Source of the DNA: Pseudoxanthomonas yeongjuensis
GTDB taxonomy: Bacteria > Pseudomonadota > Gammaproteobacteria > Xanthomonadales > Xanthomonadaceae
DNA: 64,000 nucleotides
Direction of reading: 5' to 3'
Assembly (NCBI RefSeq): GCF_010093345.1
Contig: NZ_PDWT01000001.1
Location: forward strand, 310,001 to 374,000
A program made the translations under genes and the position numbers. Each line of letters begins with the position of its first letter. Positions within the stretch are counted from its first letter, which is position 1. This document shows positions 1,769 to 15,035 of the stretch, in pieces. Below the pieces are notes generated by a model. That model ran no database searches and was not told the DNA's origin. It saw only the letters and a program-made list of their open reading frames with translations.

Positions 1769-1845
<77 letters not shown>

Positions 1846-1984
1846 ATGAAGCCGCGTATTGTATTCAGTCGGGCCGGGGTGGGGCAAGTAGTACGTGGGT
1901 TCCCGCCTGCCTGGGCCGTTCAGCCGCTAAAATGCCGGCTCGCCCTTACTTGCCGCTGTGCGGCCGCCATCCGGGAGTTTTCGC

Positions 1985-3391
1985 TTGATCAAGCCGCGCA
2001 CGCCGCCAGGGGTCATGGAGCTGCTGCCCCGCGACCAGATCGCCTTCCAGCGCATGCTGGACACGATCCGCCGCAACTACGAGCGTTTCGGGTTCCTGCC
2101 GGTGGAAACCCCGGTCTTCGAGCTGTCCGAGGTCTTGCTGACCAAATCCGGCGGCGAGACCGAGCGCCAGGTGTATTTCGCCCAGTCCACCGGCGCGCTG
2201 GAGAAATCCGGGAGCGAGGCGGATGGCGGGTCGAGATCCGCCCTGCCGGAGCTGGCCCTGCGTTTCGACCTGACCGTGCCGCTGGCCCGCTACGTGGCCG
2301 AGCACGAACACGAACTGGCCTTCCCGTTCCGCCGTTACCAGATCCAGCGCGTGTATCGCGGCGAGCGCGCCCAGCGCGGCCGTTTCCGCGAGTTCTACCA
2401 GTGCGACATCGACGTGGTCGGCAAGGATTCGCTGAGCATCCGCTTCGACGCCGAGATCCTGGCGGTGATCCATGCGGTGTTCTCGGAACTGGGCATCGGC
2501 GACTTCACCGTGCAGCTCAACAACCGCAAGCTGATGCGCGGCTTCTTCGAGGGCCTGGGCGTCGCCGATGGCGAGCAGCAGATGGCGGTGCTGCGCGAAG
2601 TGGACAAACTGGACAAACGCGGTGCCGACTACGTGCGCGAGACGCTGACCGGCGAAGGCTTCGGCTTGTCGGCGGAGACGGTGGAGAAGATCCTCGGATT
2701 CGTGGCCGTGCGTTCGACCAGCCATGCCGATGCGCTGGCCCGCCTCGACGCTCTGGGGCAGGGTAGCGACACCTTCAACCAGGGCGTCGCCGAACTGCGC
2801 GAGGTGCTGGAGTTGGTGCATGCGCTGGGCGTGCCGGAAAGCGATTACTGCCTCAACCTGTCGATCGCGCGCGGCCTGGATTACTACACCGGCACCGTGT
2901 GCGAAACCGTGCTCGACGATTTCTCGCAGATCGGCTCGATCTGTTCCGGCGGACGCTACGACGACCTGGCCAGCCACTACAGCAAGTCGAAGCTGCCGGG
3001 CGTAGGCATTTCCATCGGCCTGACCCGCCTGTTCTGGCAGCTGCGCGAAGCGGGCCTGGTGGCTGGCGTCGATGAAAGTTCGGTACAGGCGATGGTCGCG
3101 CTGATGGAGGAAACCCAGCTCACCGATTCGCTGGATATCGCCCGGCGCCTGCGCGCCGGCGGCATCAACACCGAAGTGCAGATGGAGCCGAAGAAACTGG
3201 GCAAGCAGTTCCAGTACGCCTCGCGCGCCGGGATCCGCTTCGTGGTCCTGGCCGGCGAGGACGAACTGGCGCGTGGCGTGGTCACGGTGAAGGACCTGGC
3301 CCGCGAGCAGCAATTCGAGGTGACGCGCGATGAGCTGGCTTCCAGCCTGCGCGTGGAGTTGGAACAGACTCGCGCGCTCGCCGGTCGCTGA
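1985..3391 (+). CDS. hisS: Histidine--tRNA ligase
   Basis: Class II aminoacyl-tRNA synthetase that charges tRNA-His. The motif 2 region ([29 protein letters not shown]), the histidine-binding motif GLDYYTGTV and the motif 3 segment [11 protein letters not shown] are all present. The C-terminal anticodon-binding domain follows from about residue 370. I chose the TTG start at 1985 ([16 protein letters not shown]), which has a GGGAG ribosome site seven bases upstream and makes 468 residues. An in-frame GTG at 1958 would add nine residues. The gene is followed 32 bases later by an aromatic amino acid lyase on the same strand. It lies about 4.6 kb from the histidine biosynthesis operon, with a diguanylate cyclase gene between on the other strand. 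Confidence 0.95.
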
Positions 3392-3401
3392 GAGAGCCTG
3401 C

Positions 3402-3433
3402 ATTCAATGAAACCGAGTATTCAATGAAACCGA
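3402..3433 (+). repeat. Tandem duplication of the lyase start region
   Basis: The 15-base unit attcaatgaaaccga occurs at 3402-3416 and again at 3419-3433, so the ATG start and its surroundings are duplicated. The first ATG (3407) opens a six-codon frame (MKPSIQ) whose TGA at 3425-3427 overlaps the true ATG at 3424 as ATGA. This could couple or dampen initiation of the lyase. Confidence 0.8.
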
Positions 3434-5319
3434 TCCGCCTCGATGGACAATCCCTGACCCGCGACCAATTGGTTGCGATCGCTTGTGGCGCCAGCGTCGG
3501 GCTCGACCCGGGCGCACTGAAAGCAGTGGCGCGCGCCGCCGATTTCCTCGCCGAGCAGGTGCGCCGGGAAGAGCCGATCTACGGCGTCTCCACCGGCTTC
3601 GGCAGCAACGCCGACAAGCTGCTGGGCGCGCATCCGTTGCGCGACGAACTGCCGGGCGCGCAGAAGTCCGGTCGCTCGCTGCACGAGGAGCTGCAGAACA
3701 ACCTGATCATCACCCACGCCGTCTGCGTGGGCGAGCCGATGTCCGCCGAAGTGGTGCGGGCGATGCTCGGTATCCGCATCAACACCCTGCTGCGTGGCCA
3801 TTCCGGTATCCGCGTGCAGACCCTGGAAGCGATGGCGGCGATGCTCAATGCCGGCATCGTGCCGGTGGTGCCGGAGCTGGGTTCGGTCGGCGCTTCCGGC
3901 GACCTGGCGCCGCTTTCGCATCTGGCGCTGGTGCTGCTCGGTGGTGGCGAAGCCTTCTACGAAGGCGAGCGCATGCCAGGTGCGCAGGCCCTGCAGCGTG
4001 CCGGGCTGACGCCGGTCAAGCTTTCCTACAAGGAAGGCCTGGCGCTGAACAACGGCACCGCGCAGATGCTGGCGATGGGCGTGCTGTCGCTGCACAAGCT
4101 GGATGCCTTGCTGGATACCGCCGATCTTGCCGCGGCGATGACCATCGATGCCTTCGCCGGCCGACTCGGCGCTTTCGCGGAAGAAGTGCACGCCTTGCGT
4201 CCGCACCCCGGACAGGTGCACGTGGCCTCGCGCCTGCGCGACCTGCTGCAGGGCTCCACCCTGGCCGATATTTCCTATCACCTGGTGCCGAAGTTCAAGC
4301 AATGGTTGCCGCACAGTTGGGACACACCGGAATCGCAGCAACTGCGTTTCGATATCGGCTGGGACTGGGTGCCCAGCGACCAGCGCCATGGACGCGAGAA
4401 GTTCTACGACCGCTTCCGCCCGTTCCGCGGCGGCAAGAAGCACCAGCCGCAGGACAGCTACTCGCTGCGCTGCATTCCGCAGGTGCATGGCGCGGTGCGC
4501 GACGCGGTGGCGCAAGCCAAGCGCGTGCTCGATATCGAATTGAATTCGGTCACCGACAATCCGTTGGTGTTCCCGGACAAGAGGGATGCGGCGCACGTGG
4601 AAGAGCAGGTGATTTCCGCCGGCCATTTCCACGGCATGCCGCTGGCCCTGGCGATGAGCTACGTGAAGGCCTCGATTCCGGTGCTGGCCTCGATCAGCGA
4701 GCGCCGGCTGAACAAGCTGGTCGACCCCGCCACCAACGACGGCCTGCCCGCGTTCCTCATCGGCAACGAAGACGGCACCGAGTCAGGCCACATGATCGTG
4801 CAGTACACCGCCGCGGCCATCGTCAACGACCTGGCCAGCCGCGCGCATCCGGCCTCGGTGTTTTCCATTCCCACCAGCGCCAACGCCGAGGACCATGTGT
4901 CGATGGGCGCGAACGAAGCGCGCCAGGTGCTGGCGATGACGCGGGACCTGGGCAAGGTGCTGGCGCTTGAGTTGTACACCGCGGCACAGGCGCTGGATTT
5001 GCGCATGGACATGATCAATGCCGCGCGCGACCTGTCGCGGCGTACCGATGCGGCGGCGTTCGCGGCGAAAGTGCAGGGTGGTCCGCATGGCGACGCAGCT
5101 GCCGACGGAGCGTTCCACAGCGAGGTCGAAGGCCTGCGCGCGGAGCTTGCGAAGGCCGATGAATTCCATCCGGGCCGTGCCGTCGCGGCGGCGCACACGG
5201 CGATCCGCACGGAGATCCCTTTCCTGGATCGTGATCGGGCGATGGATGGGGAAGTCGCCAGGGCGGTAAGCCTGGTGGAATCCGGCAGGTTGCTGGACGC
5301 GATACGTCAGGCTGGCTGA
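3424..5319 (+). CDS. HAL/PAL-family aromatic amino acid lyase, enlarged form
   Basis: A lyase of the histidine/phenylalanine/tyrosine ammonia-lyase fold. These enzymes remove ammonia through an MIO cofactor made from an internal Ala-Ser-Gly, here residues 157-159 in GSVGASGDLAPLSHL. Also conserved are Tyr53 in YGVSTGFGS, Asn210 in LALNNGTAQ, SYSLRCIPQVHGA, and TDNPLVF. The pair at 97-98 is Thr-His, closer to the Ser-His of histidine lyases than to the Phe-Leu or His-Leu of PAL and TAL. At 631 residues it is about 120 longer than HutH. Residues about 278-342, rich in W, R and K, lie just before the QDSYSLRC motif where HutH has about 20 residues. A further extension lies near 560-590. No hutU, hutI or hutG is nearby. 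The substrate is uncertain, and a role in specialised metabolism is as plausible as histidine breakdown. Confidence 0.8.
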   Translation: MKPIRLDGQSLTRDQLVAIACGASVGLDPGALKAVARAADFLAEQVRREEPIYGVSTGFGSNADKLLGAHPLRDELPGAQKSGRSLHEELQNNLIITHAVCVGEPMSAEVVRAMLGIRINTLLRGHSGIRVQTLEAMAAMLNAGIVPVVPELGSVGASGDLAPLSHLALVLLGGGEAFYEGERMPGAQALQRAGLTPVKLSYKEGLALNNGTAQMLAMGVLSLHKLDALLDTADLAAAMTIDAFAGRLGAFAEEVHALRPHPGQVHVASRLRDLLQGSTLADISYHLVPKFKQWLPHSWDTPESQQLRFDIGWDWVPSDQRHGREKFYDRFRPFRGGKKHQPQDSYSLRCIPQVHGAVRDAVAQAKRVLDIELNSVTDNPLVFPDKRDAAHVEEQVISAGHFHGMPLALAMSYVKASIPVLASISERRLNKLVDPATNDGLPAFLIGNEDGTESGHMIVQYTAAAIVNDLASRAHPASVFSIPTSANAEDHVSMGANEARQVLAMTRDLGKVLALELYTAAQALDLRMDMINAARDLSRRTDAAAFAAKVQGGPHGDAAADGAFHSEVEGLRAELAKADEFHPGRAVAAAHTAIRTEIPFLDRDRAMDGEVARAVSLVESGRLLDAIRQAG

Positions 5320-5573: not shown

Positions 5574-7385
5574 TCAAAGCGTCCGCACGCAATCGCGCCC
5601 TTCCGCCTTGGCCGCGTACAAGGCCTGGTCCGCCACCTGCAGCGCCGATTCGACGCTGTTCTTCGCGGCGACGTCGACCGAATGCACGCCGATGCTGGCC
5701 GAGACCGGGATCACCAGTTCGCCGCTCACGCAGGGCCGGCGATTCAGGCTCTGCCGCAGCTCTTCGGCCACCGCGCTGGCCTGGGCCAGGTCCATGCCGG
5801 GCAGGGCGGCGATGAACTCCTCGCCGCCGAAACGCGCCAGCAGCGCGCCATGCGGGGCCAGCGCCTCGGCCATGGTGTTGGAGGTGCAGCGCAGGCAGTC
5901 GTCGCCGACCAGGTGGCCGTAGCTGTCGTTGATCTTCTTGAAATGATCCAGGTCGATCATCAGCAGCGAGATCGGATGGCGGCTGTTGCGCGCCTCCGAC
6001 AGCAGGTGCTCGAAGGCCTCGCGGAAATGGGTGCGGTTGTACAGGTCGGTCAGGCCGTCGTGGCGGCTGAACTCGCTGAGCCGATGGTGCGCGTCCTCCA
6101 GCTGCCCCAGTGCGTTGCGCAGTTCCGAGGTGCGTTGTTCGACCTTGTGCTCAAGCTGGTCGCGGGCTTCGCGCACGATGCGTTCGTTCTCGTTGCGCAG
6201 GGCCGCATAGCGGTAACCCAATGCGATCGATAACAGCAGCATTTCCAGCGCGGAACCGATCTGCACGCCGTACTCGGTGACGAAGTTCTTCGGCAGCAGG
6301 TTGAAAGCGATGGCCGCGAACATGCCGGTGCCCAGCAGGAACAGGAACCACGCCAGCAGGAACAACTTGGCCGGCTTGTAGCCGCGCCGCAGGACCACGA
6401 TGGTTTCCACCAGGATCCAGCCGATGCACGGGAACACCGCCGCCGATGCCAGCGGCACCACGCTGCGATAGGGCAACTGCGTGGCGGCGATGCCGAGGAG
6501 GACGAAGAAGGCGATGATCGCCAGCGCGACCCGGTCGCCGAAGCGCCAGCGCTGCTTCAGTTCCAGGAATATCCGCGCGAACTGCTGCATGCCGATCAGG
6601 GCCAGGCAGATCGACAGCGGCACCATGTGGTCGGCCAGCCACGCCGATCGCGGCCACAGGTATTCGAAGCCCAGTCCGTTGAGGGTGAACAGGACCAGGC
6701 CGAAGGCGCTGATATGGAACAGGTACCAGAAATAGCCGGGGTCGCGCAGGGTCAGCCACAGCACCAAGTTGTAGATGAAAAGCGCCAGCAGGATGCCGTA
6801 GTACAGGCCGATGGCGAACTGGGCATCGCGCGATTGCTCGATGAAGGCGGCGGGCGCGTACAGGCGCAACGGCACCTGCATCGAGCTTTCGCTCTGCACG
6901 CGGACCATCAGGTCGACGGTCGTGCCTTGCGGCACGCTCAACCAGAAATTCGGGTGCCGGTAACGGATGTTGCGCTGGTCGAAGGGCAGGTGATCGCCGC
7001 CCGAGGCGTGCACCACCCGGCCATCCGGATAGGTCGCATACAGATCGATGCGGTCGCTGAGTGCGTACTCCTGGGTCAGCAGCCACTTGTCTTCGGGGCT
7101 GTCCCGGTTGCTGACCTGCAAATGGAACCAGTAGGCGCCATCCTGGAAGCCGAAGGACGGGTTGTCGCCGGGTATCCGCTGGAAACCGCCCCCGGCCAGT
7201 CTTGCCCGGGCGGCGGCAAGATCGTCCTTGCCGGTTTCGTCGTGATGGAAGGTGGTGTACGGGGCCAGCGACACCTGCGCAGTGGATGCAGCGAGTTGCA
7301 GCGGCGTGCGCGCGAATGCGTTCGCTGCCAGCAAGGCAAGAAGGATCGATAACAGCCGAATCAGTCGACTCCGCCAACGCAGCAT
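5574..7385 (-). CDS. Membrane diguanylate cyclase with 7TMR-DISM sensor
   Basis: Predicted to make cyclic di-GMP from GTP. The order is a signal peptide (about 1-25), a periplasmic 7TMR-DISM extracellular domain (about 30-175), a block of seven membrane helices (about 190-385), a short coiled coil (about 390-440) and a C-terminal GGDEF domain. The active-site motif is GGEEF at about 520-524. The upstream RxxD inhibitory site is absent: PHGA stands in its place, so feedback inhibition by product is unlikely. The periplasmic domain type usually senses carbohydrate-like or other small ligands. I chose the ATG at 7385, 15 codons inside the longest frame, because it starts directly at the signal peptide. 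The gene is convergent with the lyase and divergent from the his operon. Confidence 0.88.
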   Translation of the reverse strand: MLRWRSRLIRLLSILLALLAANAFARTPLQLAASTAQVSLAPYTTFHHDETGKDDLAAARARLAGGGFQRIPGDNPSFGFQDGAYWFHLQVSNRDSPEDKWLLTQEYALSDRIDLYATYPDGRVVHASGGDHLPFDQRNIRYRHPNFWLSVPQGTTVDLMVRVQSESSMQVPLRLYAPAAFIEQSRDAQFAIGLYYGILLALFIYNLVLWLTLRDPGYFWYLFHISAFGLVLFTLNGLGFEYLWPRSAWLADHMVPLSICLALIGMQQFARIFLELKQRWRFGDRVALAIIAFFVLLGIAATQLPYRSVVPLASAAVFPCIGWILVETIVVLRRGYKPAKLFLLAWFLFLLGTGMFAAIAFNLLPKNFVTEYGVQIGSALEMLLLSIALGYRYAALRNENERIVREARDQLEHKVEQRTSELRNALGQLEDAHHRLSEFSRHDGLTDLYNRTHFREAFEHLLSEARNSRHPISLLMIDLDHFKKINDSYGHLVGDDCLRCTSNTMAEALAPHGALLARFGGEEFIAALPGMDLAQASAVAEELRQSLNRRPCVSGELVIPVSASIGVHSVDVAAKNSVESALQVADQALYAAKAEGRDCVRTL

Positions 7386-7551
7386 CCTGCTAACTCCCCA
7401 AAGTCTGTTTCCGGGTTGCGGGTCCACCACGGGGACCGGCCCCGAGTCTACTCTCGCCGGATCATGGCCCCAACGGGCTCCAGTCCGGATTCCTTTGTTA
7501 CTTGAACGGAATAACCGATGGCCCGGGGACAGGTCGTCGCTCGATGCCGGC

Positions 7552-7600
7552 TTGACGGGCGCCGCAGGTATCGACTAATGTAATAGCACGCTAATACATT
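7552..7600 (+). promoter_or_regulatory. Likely his operon promoter with TrpR-type operator
   Basis: A -35-like TTGACG (7552-7557) and a -10-like TAATGT (7576-7581) lie 18 bases apart. Overlapping the -10 and the expected start point is a near-perfect palindrome at 7577-7600: AATGTAATAGC, two bases, GCTAATACATT. Its core is GTAATAG-CACG-CTAATAC. The Escherichia coli trp operator is GTACTAG-TTAA-CTAGTAC, so half-site sequence and spacing agree except at one base per half. It lies 44 bases before the TrpR-family gene, consistent with autoregulation. This is inference from sequence. Confidence 0.6.
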
Positions 7601-7644
7601 GATACAAGCCGTTCCCATGGAAATATCCCCGTGAAGATGTCCGC

Positions 7645-7971
7645 ATGAAGCGCCGTTCCCCCGCCGATGACCGGGCCGCCTCCGCCTCGCTGCAGGCGCT
7701 GTCGCGGGCGTTGGCGTCCCTGGGCAAGCCCGAGGACGTGCGCGCCTTCCTGCAGGACCTGTGCACCCCCGCCGAACTGGAAGCCATGGCCGATCGCTGG
7801 CGGGTGGTGCCCTTGCTGCTCAAGGGCGTGCCTTACCGTGAAATCCACGACCTGACCGAGGTCAGCGTCACCACCATCGGGCGCGTGGCGCGCACGCTGG
7901 AGAGCGGTACTGGCGGTTACGCATCGGCATTGCGCCGCCAGCAGTCCCGTCCTGCCGCCGCTTCCCACTGA
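7645..7971 (+). CDS. TrpR/YerC/YecD-family DNA-binding regulator
   Basis: A 108-residue protein of the Trp repressor superfamily. Helices matching TrpR run through [18 protein letters not shown] and the helix-turn-helix [20 protein letters not shown] (about residues 60-85). YerC/YecD-type members lack the classical tryptophan-binding context, so the co-ligand is unknown. The gene ends 10 bases before hisG and is almost surely in the same transcript. Together with the TrpR-like palindrome overlapping the promoter upstream, this suggests it represses its own operon, possibly in response to histidine or another amino acid. The ATG at 7645 is the first good start, although its ribosome site is weak. 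Confidence 0.85.
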
Positions 7972-7981
7972 GTCCGCCCGA

Positions 7982-8896
7982 ATGAGTCCTTCAGTCGCCC
8001 CTGCGACGCGCGATCGCCTGCGCATCGCTATCCAGAAAAGCGGGCGCCTCGCCGAGCCCGCCCGTGCGCTGCTGGCAGCCTGTGGCCTGAGCTGGCGCGA
8101 AAGCCGCGACAAGCTGTTCTGTTACGGCGAATCGTTGCCGGTCGATCTGCTGCTGGTGCGCGACGACGACATCCCCGGCCTGATCGCCGACGGGGTCTGC
8201 GATTTCGGCGTGGTCGGGCGCAACGAACTCAATGAACAGGCCGCCGCCCGCGCCAGTTTCGGCCTGTCCGACGCCTATGCGGAAGTCCGCGCACTGGGCT
8301 TCGGCAATTGCAGGCTGATGCTGGCGGTGCCGGAAACCTGGGAATGGACCGGCGCCTCGCAATTGCACGACATGCGCATCGCCACCAGCTATCCGGCGAT
8401 CCTGGCCGGCTGGCTGGAGAAGCAGGGCGTGCGCGCCAGCGTGGTCGAATTGTCCGGCTCGGTGGAAATAGCGCCGAAACTCGGCACCGCCGACCTGATC
8501 TGCGACCTGGTATCCAGCGGCGCCACGCTGCTGGCCAACCAACTCAAGCCGGTGGAAACGCTGCTGGAAAGCGAAGCCGTGCTGGCCGGTCCGACGCGTG
8601 CGCTCGAGGACCAGCGCGCCGATCTGGCCGCGATGCTGCTGCGGCGGATGGACGGCGTGCTCAAGCTCAAGGACAGCAAGCTGCTGATGTTCCGCGCAGA
8701 ACCCGCCACCGTGCCCGCGTTGCTGCGACTGCTGCCCGATGCGGATCCGCCGACCTACCTGGCGGCCGAGAACGGTGGCCCGCTGTCGCTGCAGACCATG
8801 TGCCACGGCCTGGTGACCTGGCAACGACTGGAGGAGCTGGAGCGTGCCGGTGCCCAGGGCCTGATGGTGCTGTCGGTGGAAAGGTCGCTGGCATGA
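7982..8896 (+). CDS. hisG: ATP phosphoribosyltransferase (long form)
   Basis: First enzyme of histidine synthesis, joining ATP and PRPP. At 304 residues it is the long HisG type with a catalytic part (about 1-225) and a C-terminal regulatory domain (about 230-300) that normally binds histidine for feedback inhibition. Visible motifs are [12 protein letters not shown] at the N-terminus and the PRPP-binding region [18 protein letters not shown]. It does not need a HisZ partner, and none is present. Its TGA overlaps the hisD ATG (ATGA at 8893-8896), indicating translational coupling. Confidence 0.96.
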
Positions 8897-10191
8897 ACCG
8901 GCTGGACTGGCCGTCGCTGGATGCCGAAGCGCGCCGCGTCGCGTTGCTGCGCCCGGTGCAGCAAGTCGCCGCGGAAACACGCGACGCGGTGGCTGCGCTG
9001 CTTGAAGACGTGCGCGAGCGCGGCGATGCGGCTCTGCGCGAAATCACCGCGCGTTTCGACAAGGTCGCGCTGGAAGGTTTCGAGGTCGGCGAGGAGGAAT
9101 TCGCGGCCGCCGAAGCCGCGGTTTCCGATGAGCTGAAAGCCGCCATGGGCCAGGCCGCGCAGCGCATCGAGGCCTTCCACAAAGCCGGCATCGCCCAGCC
9201 GTACGCGGTGGAAACCGCACCGGGCGTGATCTGCGAACGGATCCTGCGCCCGATACGCCGGGTCGGCCTGTACGTGCCGGCCGGCACCGCGCCGTTGCCT
9301 TCCACCGCGCTGATGCTGGGCATCCCCGCACGGCTCGCGGGTTGCCCGGAAGTGCTGCTGTGCACGCCGCCGCGCAAGGACGGCAGCGCCGATCCGGCGG
9401 TGCTGGTCGCGGCAGGAATGACCGGCGTGTCGCGCGTGCTCAAACTCGGCGGCGCCCAGGCCATCGCGGCGATGGCTTTCGGCACAGGTTCGATCGGCAA
9501 GTGCGACAAGCTCTTCGGACCCGGCAACAGCTATGTCACCGAAGCCAAGCAGCAGGTCGCGCGCGCCGGCGTGGTCGCCATCGACATGCCGGCCGGTCCA
9601 TCGGAAGTGCTGGTCATCGCCGATGGCGGCGCGGATCCCGCCTTCGTCGCGGCGGACCTGCTTTCACAGGCCGAACATGGGCCCGATTCGCAGGTATTGC
9701 TGCTTTCGGACGATGCGGGGTTGCTGGCCGCGGTCGAACGGCAGATCGAATTGCAACTTGCACGACTGCCGCGCGCGGACATCGCCCGTATCGCATTGTC
9801 GGCCTCGCGCCTGGTCAAGGTGGAATCGCTGGAGCAGGCCTTCGCCATCAGCAACGATTACGCGCCGGAACACCTGATCCTGGCCCTGCGCGAACCGCGC
9901 GCCTGGCTGGACCAGGTCCAGGCTGCGGGTTCGGTGTTCCTTGGCGACTTCACGCCCGAAGCCCTGGGCGATTACTGCAGCGGCACCAACCACGTGCTGC
10001 CCACCAGCGGCGCGGCGGCGGCCTACAGCGGGGTCAACGTGTCCAGTTTCCAGAATTCCGTCAGCGTGCAGTCCGCTTCGCTTGCGGGCATCGCCGGCAT
10101 CGGCGCTTGCGCAGTGATCCTGGCCACGGCGGAAGGACTGGAAGCGCACGCCAATGCGGTCAGGTTGCGCATGCAGGAGGTCGCGGCATGA
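8893..10191 (+). CDS. hisD: Histidinol dehydrogenase
   Basis: NAD- and zinc-dependent enzyme that oxidises histidinol to histidine in two steps, the last reactions of the pathway. At 432 residues it has the normal family length. Recognisable segments include [20 protein letters not shown], the [11 protein letters not shown] motif, [13 protein letters not shown] carrying metal-site residues, and the conserved C-terminal part with [15 protein letters not shown]. The ATG at 8893 overlaps the hisG stop, and the gene ends overlapping hisC by four bases. A longer upstream reading frame runs through hisG but has no support as a start. Confidence 0.96.
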
Positions 10192-11270
10192 GCGACCTGC
10201 TTGCCCTGGTGCGCGAGGACCTGCGTGGTTTCGCCGGGTACAAGTCCGCGCGCAGCGAAGCATTGCAGGGCGACGTGTGGTTGAACGCGAACGAATCGGC
10301 ATGGCCCAATCCGGCCGATACCACCGCCAGCTGCCGTCGCTATCCCGACCCGCAACCCGTCGCCCTGCGCAGCGCGCTGGCTGCGCTCTATGCTTGCGAT
10401 ACATCGCAGCTGTTGGTCGGGCGGGGTAGCGACGAAGCCATCGACCTGCTGGTGCGCGCATTGTGCAATCCGGGCAAGGATGCGGTGGTCGTTACTCCGC
10501 CGGTATTCGGCATGTATGCGGTTAGCGCGCGATTGCAGAATGCACCGGTCATCGAGGTGCCTTTGCAGGAAGCTGCCGATGGCCTTGAGCCCGATCTCGA
10601 TGCCATCGCCAGGGCGGCGATCGAGGCGCGCGCGAAGCTCGTCTTCCTTTGCTCGCCCTCCAACCCGGCGGGGTCCGCGATTCCGCTCGCCGACATCGGG
10701 CGACTGGCGCAGCGGCTGGAAGGTGTCGCGCTGGTGGTGGTGGATGAAGCCTATGGGGAGTTCTCCGACATCCCGTCCGCAACCGCGCTGCTGCCTGATC
10801 ACTCCAACATCGTCGTCCTGCGGACCCTGTCCAAGGCCCACGCGCTGGCCGCCGCGCGCATCGGTGTGGCGATGGCCGACGCGTCGCTGATCGAAGTCCT
10901 GCGTCGTTGCCAGGCGCCTTATCCGGTGCCGACGCCTTGCGCGGAACTGGCGTTGGCGGGATTGGCGCCGGAAGCGTTGGCAGAAACCGCGAGGAGGGTC
11001 GCGCTGGTCCGGTCCGAACGGACCCGGTTGCAGGCGGCGCTCGCCGCATTGCCGGACGTACTGCGTGTATATCCGTCGCAGGGCAATTACCTGCTGGTCA
11101 GATTCCACGATGCCGAATCCGCGTTCCGTTCGCTGCTGGCGGCAGGCGTCGTGGTTCGCGACCAGCGGGCAGCCCCACAGCTTGGCGATGCGTTGCGCAT
11201 CACGATCGGTTCGCCGGAGCAGAACGATCGGGTGGTTTCCGCGTTGCGCCTGCAGGAGGCCGCCGCATGA
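10188..11270 (+). CDS. hisC: Histidinol-phosphate aminotransferase
   Basis: PLP-dependent class I/II aminotransferase that converts imidazole acetol phosphate to histidinol phosphate. The 360 residues include [10 protein letters not shown] near the N-terminus, [11 protein letters not shown] for cofactor phosphate contacts, [18 protein letters not shown], and [15 protein letters not shown], in which the Lys of LSK forms the Schiff base. The arginine in LRITIG near the C-terminus binds the substrate carboxylate or phosphate. It overlaps hisD and hisB by four bases each (ATGA type), so the operon is tightly coupled. Confidence 0.96.
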
Positions 11271-12340
11271 CCCCGATCCTGTTCATCGACCGCGACGGTA
11301 CCCTGATCGAGGAACCGTCCGACTTCCAGATCGATGCCTACGAGAAAATACGCTTCGTGAAGGACGTGGTGCCGGCATTGCTGAAGCTGCGCGACGCCGG
11401 CTACCAATTCGTGATCGTCAGCAACCAGGACGGCCTGGGCAGCGAGGGCTATCCGCGCGGATCCTTCGATGGTCCGAACAATCTGATGCTGCAGGTCTTC
11501 GAGAGCCAGGGCGTCGTGTTCCGCGATGTATTGATCGATTGCAGCTGGCCAAGCGACAACGCGCCCACGCGCAAGCCCGCGATCGGCCTGGTGGTTCCGT
11601 ACCTGCAGGACCGCGGCATCGACTGGCCGCGTTCGGCGATGGTCGGCGACCGCGACACCGATATCGCCTTCGCCGACAACCTGCGCATCCGCGGCTTCAA
11701 GCTGAAAAGCGCCCAGTTCGGCGGCGAGTGGGACTGGATGGGCATCGCCCATGAACTGGCCGATGCGCCGCGCCGCGCCGCGGTCGAACGCAACACGAAG
11801 GAAACAAGGATCCGTGTCGAAGTCGACCTGGATCGCATCGCCGAACCCGCCATCGCCACCGGTCTTCCGTTCTTCGACCACATGCTGGAACAGATCGGCA
11901 AGCATGGCGGCTTCGCGCTGGACATCCGCACCGACGGCGACCTGCACATCGACGAGCACCACACCGTCGAGGACACCGGACTCGCTCTGGGGCAGGCCTT
12001 GAAGGAAGCGCTGGGTAACAAGCGCGGGATCGGCCGCTATGGATTCACCCTGCCGATGGATGAAACGCTTGCCAGTGCGGCGCTGGATTTCAGCGGGCGC
12101 CCGTACTTCGTGTTCTCCGGTGAATTCAAGCGCGAGCGTGTCGGCGATCTGCCGACGGAACTGGTCCCGCATTTCTTCCGTTCCGTATGCGATGCGTCCG
12201 GCCTCAACCTGAACCTGCAGGTGCAGGGCGACAACGATCACCACAAGGTCGAGGCCTGCTTCAAGTCCTTCGCCCGCGCACTGCGCCAGGCGATCAAGCG
12301 TGAAGGCGCCGAGTTGCCCAGCACCAAGGGTGCGCTCTGA
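11267..12340 (+). CDS. hisB: Bifunctional histidinol-phosphatase / imidazoleglycerol-phosphate dehydratase
   Basis: A 357-residue fusion. Residues 1-165 are a HAD phosphatase with the DxDGT nucleophile motif ([12 protein letters not shown]) and [12 protein letters not shown]. Residues about 170-357 are the dehydratase with paired metal-binding segments [13 protein letters not shown] and [16 protein letters not shown], then [18 protein letters not shown]. It performs steps seven and nine of the pathway. The fused form is typical of gammaproteobacteria. The stop overlaps the hisH start by one base (TGATG). Confidence 0.96.
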
Positions 12341-12939
12341 TGAAAGTGGCTTTGGTGGATGCGGGTGGGGCGAACCTGGGTTCGGTGCGGTTCGCACTGC
12401 AGCGCCTGGGCGTGGAAGCCACACTGACCGGCGATGCGCAGGTGATCCGCACAGCCGATCGCGTGATCCTGCCCGGGGTCAGCACCGCCGGCACGGTGAT
12501 GCGCCGGCTGCGCGAACTGGACCTAGTGGAAACGCTGCGCAACCTGGACAAACCGCTGCTGGGGGTCTGCATCGGCATGCAGCTGCTGTTCGAAGGCTCC
12601 GACGAGGGCGACGTGGAATGCCTCGGCCTGTTGCCGGGCCGGGTAGCCAAACTGCCCGCCGGCCCGGGCATCCGTGTTCCGCACATGGGCTGGAACACGT
12701 TGCTGCCGGTGCGCAGCAATTCGCTGTCCGCGGGTATCGGTGGCGACGATCGCGCCTACTTCGTGCACAGCTACGCCGCGCCGGTGACGCCCGATTGCGT
12801 GTTTTCCTGCGAGCACGGCGCTGCCTTCGCGGCGGTCGTGCAACGCGGCAACGTGGCCGGCGCGCAGTTCCATCCGGAACGCTCGGCCGGGACCGGCGCG
12901 CGGTTGCTGCGCAATTTCCTCGAACAGGGGCTGGCATGA
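12340..12939 (+). CDS. hisH: Imidazole glycerol phosphate synthase, glutaminase subunit
   Basis: Class I glutamine amidotransferase, 199 residues, that supplies ammonia to HisF. The nucleophile Cys is in [14 protein letters not shown], the catalytic His in GAQFHPERS, with the Glu two residues later. The N-terminal motif [14 protein letters not shown] resembles the usual DYGxGNLxSV but has a GGA in place of the YG pair, a mild variation. It starts on the last base of hisB and overlaps hisA by four bases. Confidence 0.95.
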
Positions 12940-13673
12940 GCGGCTTCACCGTCTATCCCGCCATCGACGTGCGCGAAGGGCGCGTGGTCCGGCTCGCGCA
13001 GGGCGACTATGCGCGGCAAACCAGTTATGAGCGCGATCCTCTCGAGACCGCGCGCCGGTATGCAGATCAAGGCGCTACCTGGCTGCATCTCGTCGATCTG
13101 GATGCCGCGCGTGCCGGTGGCTACACCCTGGCACCACTGCTGAGCGAGATCCGTGCCTTCACCGGTTTGCGGGTGCAGACCGGAGGCGGCGTGCGTGAGC
13201 GCGACGATGTCGTGCGGATCCTCGCCGCAGGCGCCGCGCGCGTGGTCATCGGTTCGCTGGCGGTGAAGGATCCGGAACGGGTATTGGGATGGGTCGACGA
13301 ATTCGGCGTCGATCGCATCACCGTGGCGCTGGATAGCCGGCAGGATGAGGCCGGCCGCTGGCGCCTGCCAGTGCATGGTTGGACCGAGACCGCCGCGTCG
13401 ACGCTGGATGAACTCGCCGTGCGCTATGCCGACGCCGGCCTGGAACACCTGTTGAGCACCGATATCGCGCGTGATGGCATGTTGTCCGGCCCGAACGGCG
13501 ACCTGTACGCGCATCTGCGGGCCATCGCCCCAGGCTTGCAGGTGCAGGCATCCGGTGGCGTCCGTGACGTGGCCGACGTTGCCGCGGCGAAGGCTCAGGG
13601 TTGCGCCGGCATCGTGCTCGGCCGCGCACTGCTGGAAGGGAAGCTGGAGCTGGAAGAGGCCCTGGCATGCTGA
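12936..13673 (+). CDS. hisA: ProFAR isomerase
   Basis: A (beta/alpha)8 barrel of 245 residues that opens the ribose ring of ProFAR. The paired phosphate-binding sites are [11 protein letters not shown] and [10 protein letters not shown]. The catalytic Asp residues sit in [14 protein letters not shown] and [10 protein letters not shown]. HisA and HisF are homologous half-barrel duplications and lie next to each other here. The start overlaps hisH and the end overlaps hisF by seven bases. Confidence 0.96.
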
Positions 13674-14443
13674 GCCGGCGCATCATTCCCTGCCTGGACG
13701 TGCGCGATGGCCGCGTGGTCAAGGGCGTGCGTTTCCGCGACCATGTGGACGTGGGCGATATCGCGGAGCTGGCATTGCGCTATCGCGACGAGGGCGCCGA
13801 TGAACTGGTGTTCTACGATATCGGCGCCAGTCCGGAAGGCCGCTCCGTCGACCATGCCTGGGTGGAACGCGTTTCCAGCCTGCTCGACATCCCGTTCTGC
13901 GTGGCCGGCGGCATCCGCGACGTGGCGACCGCGCGCGCGGTGCTGCATGCGGGCGCGGACAAGATCTCGGTCAACAGTCCGGCGCTGGAACGGCCTGCGT
14001 TGATCTGCGAACTGGCCAATGCCTTCGGCGTGCAGTGCATCGTGGTCGGCATCGATTCGATCCGCGAAGCCGACGGCGAATGGCGGGTGCGCAGCAATAC
14101 CGGCGATCCTTCGAAGACGAGGGCGCTGCCATTACGCACTCTGGACTGGCTGGTCGAGGCGCAACGGCTGGGTGCCGGCGAAATCGTGTTGAACTGCATG
14201 GACAGCGATGGGGTGCGTCGTGGTTACGACCTCGCCCAGTTGCAGGAGGCGAGGACGCTTTGCGAAGTGCCGCTGGTGGCTTCCGGGGGAGCGGGAGAAA
14301 TGCAGCATTTCGCCGCCGTTTTCCGTGACGCCGATGTAGACGGGGCACTGGCTGCCAGCGTTTTCCACAGCGGCGCCATCGCCATTCCCGCGCTCAAGCG
14401 CTATTTGCGTTCGCAACAGATCGAGGTGCGCGATGCCGGATGA
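13667..14443 (+). CDS. hisF: Imidazole glycerol phosphate synthase, cyclase subunit
   Basis: Barrel subunit of 258 residues that closes the imidazole ring using ammonia from HisH. The N-terminal catalytic Asp lies in [20 protein letters not shown]. Other anchors are [20 protein letters not shown], the second Asp in [14 protein letters not shown], and the phosphate site [12 protein letters not shown]. It overlaps hisA by seven bases and hisIE by 11 bases. Confidence 0.96.
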
Positions 14444-15035
14444 GTTCGGAAATCTGGACTGGGAGAAAGGCGATGGTCTGCTGCCCGTGATCGTCCAGGA
14501 CGCCGCCAACCTGCGCGTGCTGATGCTCGGCTACATGAACGCCGAGGCGCTGGCGGCGACGCGGGCCAGCGGTTTGGTCACTTTCTACAGCCGCAGCAAG
14601 CAGCGTTTGTGGAAAAAGGGCGAGACTTCCGGCCACGTGCTGGAACTGGTGTCGGTAGAGGCGGACTGCGACAACGACACGTTGCTGGTGCTGGCCCGCC
14701 CGCAGGGACCGACCTGCCATCTGCAGCGTGCGAGCTGTTTTCCCGATGCACCCGGCGACTTCCTGGCCGACCTCGATGCGCTGGTCGCGCAACGCGAGCG
14801 CGAGCGTCCTGCCGGCAGCTACACGACCGGGTTGTTCGCGGGCGGCGTGCGCCGGATCGCACAGAAGGTGGGCGAGGAGGGCGTGGAAACCGCATTGGCC
14901 GCGGTCGCGCAGGACGATGAGGCATTACTGGGAGAAGCTTCGGACCTGTTGTTCCACATGATCGTGCTGCTGCGCGCGCGCGGGCTTTCCCTGCGTGACG
15001 TCGCAGGGGTGCTGGAGCAGCGGCACCGCAAATAG
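14433..15035 (+). CDS. hisI: Bifunctional phosphoribosyl-AMP cyclohydrolase / phosphoribosyl-ATP pyrophosphatase
   Basis: HisIE fusion of 200 residues. The N-terminal cyclohydrolase (about 1-110) has [31 protein letters not shown] and the metal-binding [12 protein letters not shown] with Cys in CHLQRASCF. The C-terminal MazG-like pyrophosphatase (about 115-200) has [14 protein letters not shown] and [13 protein letters not shown]. It is the last gene of the operon and is followed within a few bases by a palindromic repeat that may mark the transcript end. Confidence 0.95.

Follow-up and report, generated by a model that had tools for sequence, protein, structure and literature searches.

A predicted operator for HisR, a TrpR-family regulator, was identified at positions 7577-7600 (assigned to neither strand) of a 64,000-nucleotide stretch of Pseudoxanthomonas yeongjuensis DNA (the window), upstream of the hisR-his operon. 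We are highly confident in the prediction that a histidine-loaded HisR dimer binds this site and represses hisR and hisGDCBHAF-hisIE by covering the -10 element. With histidine as its co-repressor, the dimer would bind both half-sites and cover the -10 hexamer TAATGT as well as the predicted start near 7588. RNA polymerase would be kept off sterically, and hisR and hisGDCBHAF-hisIE would be repressed together. When histidine falls, HisR would leave the operator and the operon would be transcribed.

The site is a near-perfect palindrome of 24 bp with an 11-2-11 layout, AATGTAATAGC-AC-GCTAATACATT. Analysis with a repeat finder placed its 11-nt arms at 7577-7587 and 7590-7600, with a gap of 2 nt and complementarity at 10/11 positions, in agreement with the single mismatch described in the first-pass annotation of this DNA. 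The palindrome lies 44 bp before the start of hisR (7645-7971). Positions 7580-7597 read GTAATAG-CACG-CTAATAC, and the E. coli trp operator is GTACTAG-TTAA-CTAGTAC. The half-site layout of the trp operator, with one base changed per half, had also been claimed and is borne out by the sequence; the central four bases differ completely (CACG compared with TTAA). The window site thus has the 7-4-7 layout of a TrpR-type operator and overlaps the promoter. It would work like a TrpR operator, which does not make the protein a TrpR.

The 20-bp core (7579-7598) matches the HisR arrangement TGTAnTAr-n4-yTAnTACA with zero mismatches. When up to three mismatches were allowed, this arrangement was found once in the 64-kb window, as the zero-mismatch site, compared with 0.17 matches expected from shuffles. 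The operator was also the sole exact match in the 3.94-Mb genome, where the next best matches have 2 mismatches. Weaker genome matches were not above a reversed control pattern (24 versus 51 per strand), and no hisR or hisG was identified near such matches in 14 fetched loci. A wider HisR regulon was rejected, as the 2-mismatch sites had no hisR or hisG nearby and did not exceed the control pattern.

Conservation of the palindrome upstream of hisR, the check proposed in the first-pass annotation, was examined across relatives and held: order-wide, the operator was present in 169/169 homologous loci with 0-3 mismatches (0-1 in 156), and hisG followed hisR in 168/169. In the other families of the order, 53/60 loci had 0-1 mismatch. 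Among 80 named relatives (from Pseudoxanthomonas, Xanthomonas, Stenotrophomonas, Lysobacter, Luteimonas, Arenimonas, Dokdonella and others), the operator lay within 250 bp of hisR with no mismatch in 45, one in 30 and two in 5; a control stretch of equal size, downstream in the same loci, gave at least 4 mismatches. A stricter motif (centre CRCR, at most one mismatch) was then searched in 54 family genomes. This analysis revealed exactly one match in each of 36 genomes and none with the reversed-pattern control. All 36 sites adjoin hisR, 31 by the coordinates of hisR hits and 5 by tblastn, which placed hisG next to the site in those 5 genomes too.

Absence followed the same pattern. Six of the 54 family genomes have no hisR, and no stricter-motif site was found in them. 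Of the 14 family genomes identified without hisR, hisG is missing from 13, and the remaining one has only a hisG fragment, located at the end of a contig. In a further family (f8), the hisG of genomes lacking hisR is divergent (25-34% identity to the window HisG), and the one operator-like site in these genomes is an A/T-rich match with 2 mismatches (locus L201); the two f8 genomes that possess hisR retain such a site. By these counts, presence of the site goes with presence of the regulator, and absence with absence. The L201 match was rejected as a remnant operator and, being A/T-rich with 2 mismatches, was taken as chance. The his genes at the f8 loci without hisR (L190-L205) may be of different origin and under different control. 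Ten near-complete family genomes with no detectable hisR or hisG (G002, G003, G034, G037, G054, G075, G082, G102, G168 and G182) are probably auxotrophic for histidine or rely on a divergent HisG.

Domain searches supported the first-pass reading of a TrpR/YerC-family gene followed by the his genes, in family and in order, with the exception that the last gene, given as hisI, is a fused hisIE. All genes of the operon lie on the plus strand, and neighbours overlap or almost touch. The first, hisR (7645-7971), encodes a 108-aa TrpR-family repressor of the YerC/YecD type (PF01371, TIGR02531) and is followed after a 10-nt gap by hisG (ATP phosphoribosyltransferase, 7982-8896; PF01634, TIGR00070). 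Then come hisD (histidinol dehydrogenase, 8893-10191; PF00815), hisC (aminotransferase class I/II, 10188-11270; PF00155 together with operon position), hisB (phosphatase-dehydratase fusion, 11267-12340; PF00475 with HAD-type N-terminal matches), hisH (glutamine amidotransferase, 12340-12939; PF00117), hisA (12936-13673; PF00977), hisF (13667-14443; PF00977) and hisIE (14433-15035; PF01502 and PF01503). A membrane diguanylate cyclase gene (7TMR-DISM and GGDEF; 5574-7430, minus strand) lies between hisR and an upstream lyase gene; it and hisR are divergently oriented and share a single intergenic region. Further upstream, the histidyl-tRNA synthetase gene hisS (1958-3391) adjoins a tRNA-Pro (cgg) gene (1769-1845, minus strand) and is followed 32 bases on by this HutH-like lyase gene (3424-5319). 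The lyase is atypical: the 631-aa product scores under the hutH equivalog cut-off, and its two separate stretches of similarity to the hutH model suggest an insert. No HisR-like site was found at the hisS-lyase pair (1958-5319).

The hisR product matched the Trp_repressor family PF01371 with 91.2 bits (cut-off 27; E = 4e-26), and the genome encodes no other PF01371 protein. It passed the YerC/YecD model TIGR02531 (52.2 bits, cut-off 42.2) and failed the TrpR model TIGR01321 (28.9 bits, cut-off 67.25). Among named relatives, Pseudoxanthomonas sp. CF125 has the most similar HisR sequence (89%). A six-helix fold was predicted (pLDDT 90), with 3kor, 3frw and 3g1c, all of the YerC/HisR type, as its nearest structures and TrpR coming next. 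The functional roles of the TrpR residues are those generally attributed to them. In a HMMER alignment, TrpR T44, R54, T81 and R84 have identical counterparts in HisR (T41, R51, T77 and R80), and T77 and R80, on the DNA side, are invariant among homologues. TrpR L41, L43 and G85 are replaced by D38, C40 and V81, which are invariant in 26 homologues; the tryptophan-pocket residues G85, L41 and L43 are not found in HisR.

The same D, C and V letters occupy the pocket positions in Firmicutes HisR/YerC structures. As D38, C40 and V81 are common to the Firmicutes proteins, the residues speak for a pocket of the histidine type rather than the Trp type, and histidine is much more likely than tryptophan to be the effector. 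The assignment of histidine as effector extends a result for a distant homologue in Firmicutes, whose operator is different: a requirement of histidine for DNA binding has been shown only for Ruminococcus gnavus HisR, according to PMC9413887. The Firmicutes proteins (R. gnavus; 3kor, 3frw, 3g1c) resemble the window HisR in family, fold, pocket letters and control of histidine genes. In contrast, identity is about 30%, the Firmicutes operator (cacTTTAnnnnnnTAAAgtg, of the form cacTTTA-n6-TAAAgtg) is unlike the window operator, and the recognition helix reads VTTIGR in the window HisR and TATISR in the Firmicutes structures.

At the window locus, the -35 hexamer TTGACG (7552-7557, plus strand) and the -10 hexamer TAATGT (7576-7581, plus strand) are separated by an 18-bp spacer, and the -10 shares bases with the left operator arm; the spacing and an overlap with the palindrome had been noted in the first-pass annotation. 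TAATGT is identical to TATAAT at only 3/6 bases and a consensus promoter scanner made no call at this pair, so the promoter is weak taken by itself. Its putative assignment at 7552-7581 rests on the comparison of relatives, in which the distance of TTGAC to the operator and the TAA of the -10 are conserved. With a predicted start near 7588, the leader would be about 57 nt long. No run of His codons was found between 7588 and 7645, and no Rfam match to a known RNA leader was identified at the operon; neither a leader structure with His codons, as in a his attenuator, nor a T-box was detected at the locus.

Comparison of relatives revealed that the promoter takes several registers around the operator. 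In 106 unique family loci, TTGAC began at two sharply defined distances, 26/27 bases upstream of the operator in 49 and 7/8 bases upstream in 10. From the distal TTGAC a 17/18-bp spacer leads to TAATGT (TAA plus the left arm), and from the proximal TTGAC a spacer of the same length leads to TACATT in the right arm. TAA preceded the operator in 62/69 loci with distal TTGAC/TTGTC compared with 4/16 with the proximal element (Fisher P = 5e-7, relatedness of the loci ignored). The TT after the operator was kept in distal and proximal classes alike. For the most part, the left-arm TAA is retained only in loci using it as -10. Many of the order's other families show a third layout: TTGnnn, a 17/18-bp spacer and a TAnnnT whose end lies about 3-11 bases upstream of the operator. 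Examples include L049, L104, L120 and L124 for the right arm, the window and L047 for the left arm, and L137 and L148 for the upstream layout. When the three promoter states were placed on a HisG tree built with FastTree, at least 11 changes were required, and 7 for left versus right. Each locus was given the register of its best-scoring promoter call; a control indicated that the operator's own sequence partly favours right-arm calls, and the firm right-arm cases are the loci with TTGAC at 7/8. Many right-arm loci have their predicted start on or beside the ATG, and their hisR mRNA is possibly leaderless.

On balance, we consider it probable that in Lysobacterales the operator stays fixed while the promoter moves, the -10 being supplied by the left arm, the right arm or an upstream TATnAT-like hexamer. 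The arms would then double as -10 elements and repression would be kept through the changes of register. A transcript start at some distance from 7590 is compatible with autorepression, as relatives with this operator use other promoter registers.

Other readings of the site were weighed against repression by histidine-loaded HisR. A tryptophan-responsive TrpR linking the synthesis of histidine to tryptophan would account for a half-site one base off the trp operator, for the common fold and for the identity of T41, R51, T77 and R80 to their TrpR counterparts. The E. coli TrpR/trp operator system is like that of the window in fold, half-site layout, four-base centre and promoter overlap. In contrast, HisR scores below the TrpR cut-off, its pocket carries the D38, C40 and V81 of the Firmicutes HisR/YerC structures in place of L41, L43 and G85, the centre of its operator differs, its sole genome target is his and not trp, and R. 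gnavus HisR responds to histidine. This makes a TrpR very unlikely, and a tryptophan regulon was rejected on the family model and the pocket residues. A reading as an RNA element (attenuator or leader hairpin) or as mere promoter sequence has in its favour that the repeat would be transcribed in part, and that enterobacterial his operons are regulated by attenuation. With no Rfam leader at the operon and no His-codon run in the leader region, RNA attenuation was rejected. Furthermore, the right arm is kept even where only the left arm serves as -10, and in the right-arm register most of the operator sits inside the promoter spacer, leaving an RNA or promoter role extremely unlikely.

Conservation alone cannot separate repression from activation. 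The palindrome could belong to another regulator, or HisR could be an activator there, readings left room by an operator position relative to the promoter that differs among relatives. Another regulator is at odds with the joint presence and joint absence of site and hisR. Across all main registers, the operator either overlaps the core promoter or comes immediately after it, a placement that suits a block and not activation. We regard both readings as highly unlikely. Autorepression of hisR-his by its TrpR-family protein, as first proposed from the window sequence, fits the conservation of the site, its single occurrence, its joint absence with hisR and the promoter spacing; we infer it here with the effector amended to histidine.

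The hisR-his operator is an instance of a published and already known system. In the sections available to us, Ashniev et al. 2022 (BMC Genomics 23:558, PMC9413887) describe the HisR regulator, its proteobacterial motif with 20-bp sites and its position upstream of hisR-his, and name the Xanthomonadales; their regulon for that order differs in nothing essential from the window system. The right half as printed there, yTnTTACA, has one mismatch to the window site, whereas the symmetric yTAnTACA fits fully. The same sections refer to Su et al. 2018 for a putative TrpR-like gene in the his operon of Xanthomonas oryzae pv. oryzicola, like the window a xanthomonad his operon containing such a gene, and describe its sites, effector and mechanism as unstudied. 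They contain no mention of a promoter sliding around the HisR operator. A literature search for binding, effector or transcript-start experiments on proteobacterial HisR returned nothing beyond PMC9413887. Our analysis adds the near-universal conservation of the operator in the order, its standing as the only such site per genome, and the probable sliding of the promoter.

Taken together, these data confirm the published prediction of TrpR-family control of histidine genes in xanthomonads on many more genomes. With one site per genome, one target and an effector switch between two branches of one family, the system provides a test case. The movement of the promoter under a fixed operator would also constitute a natural experiment, a modest point on regulatory evolution.
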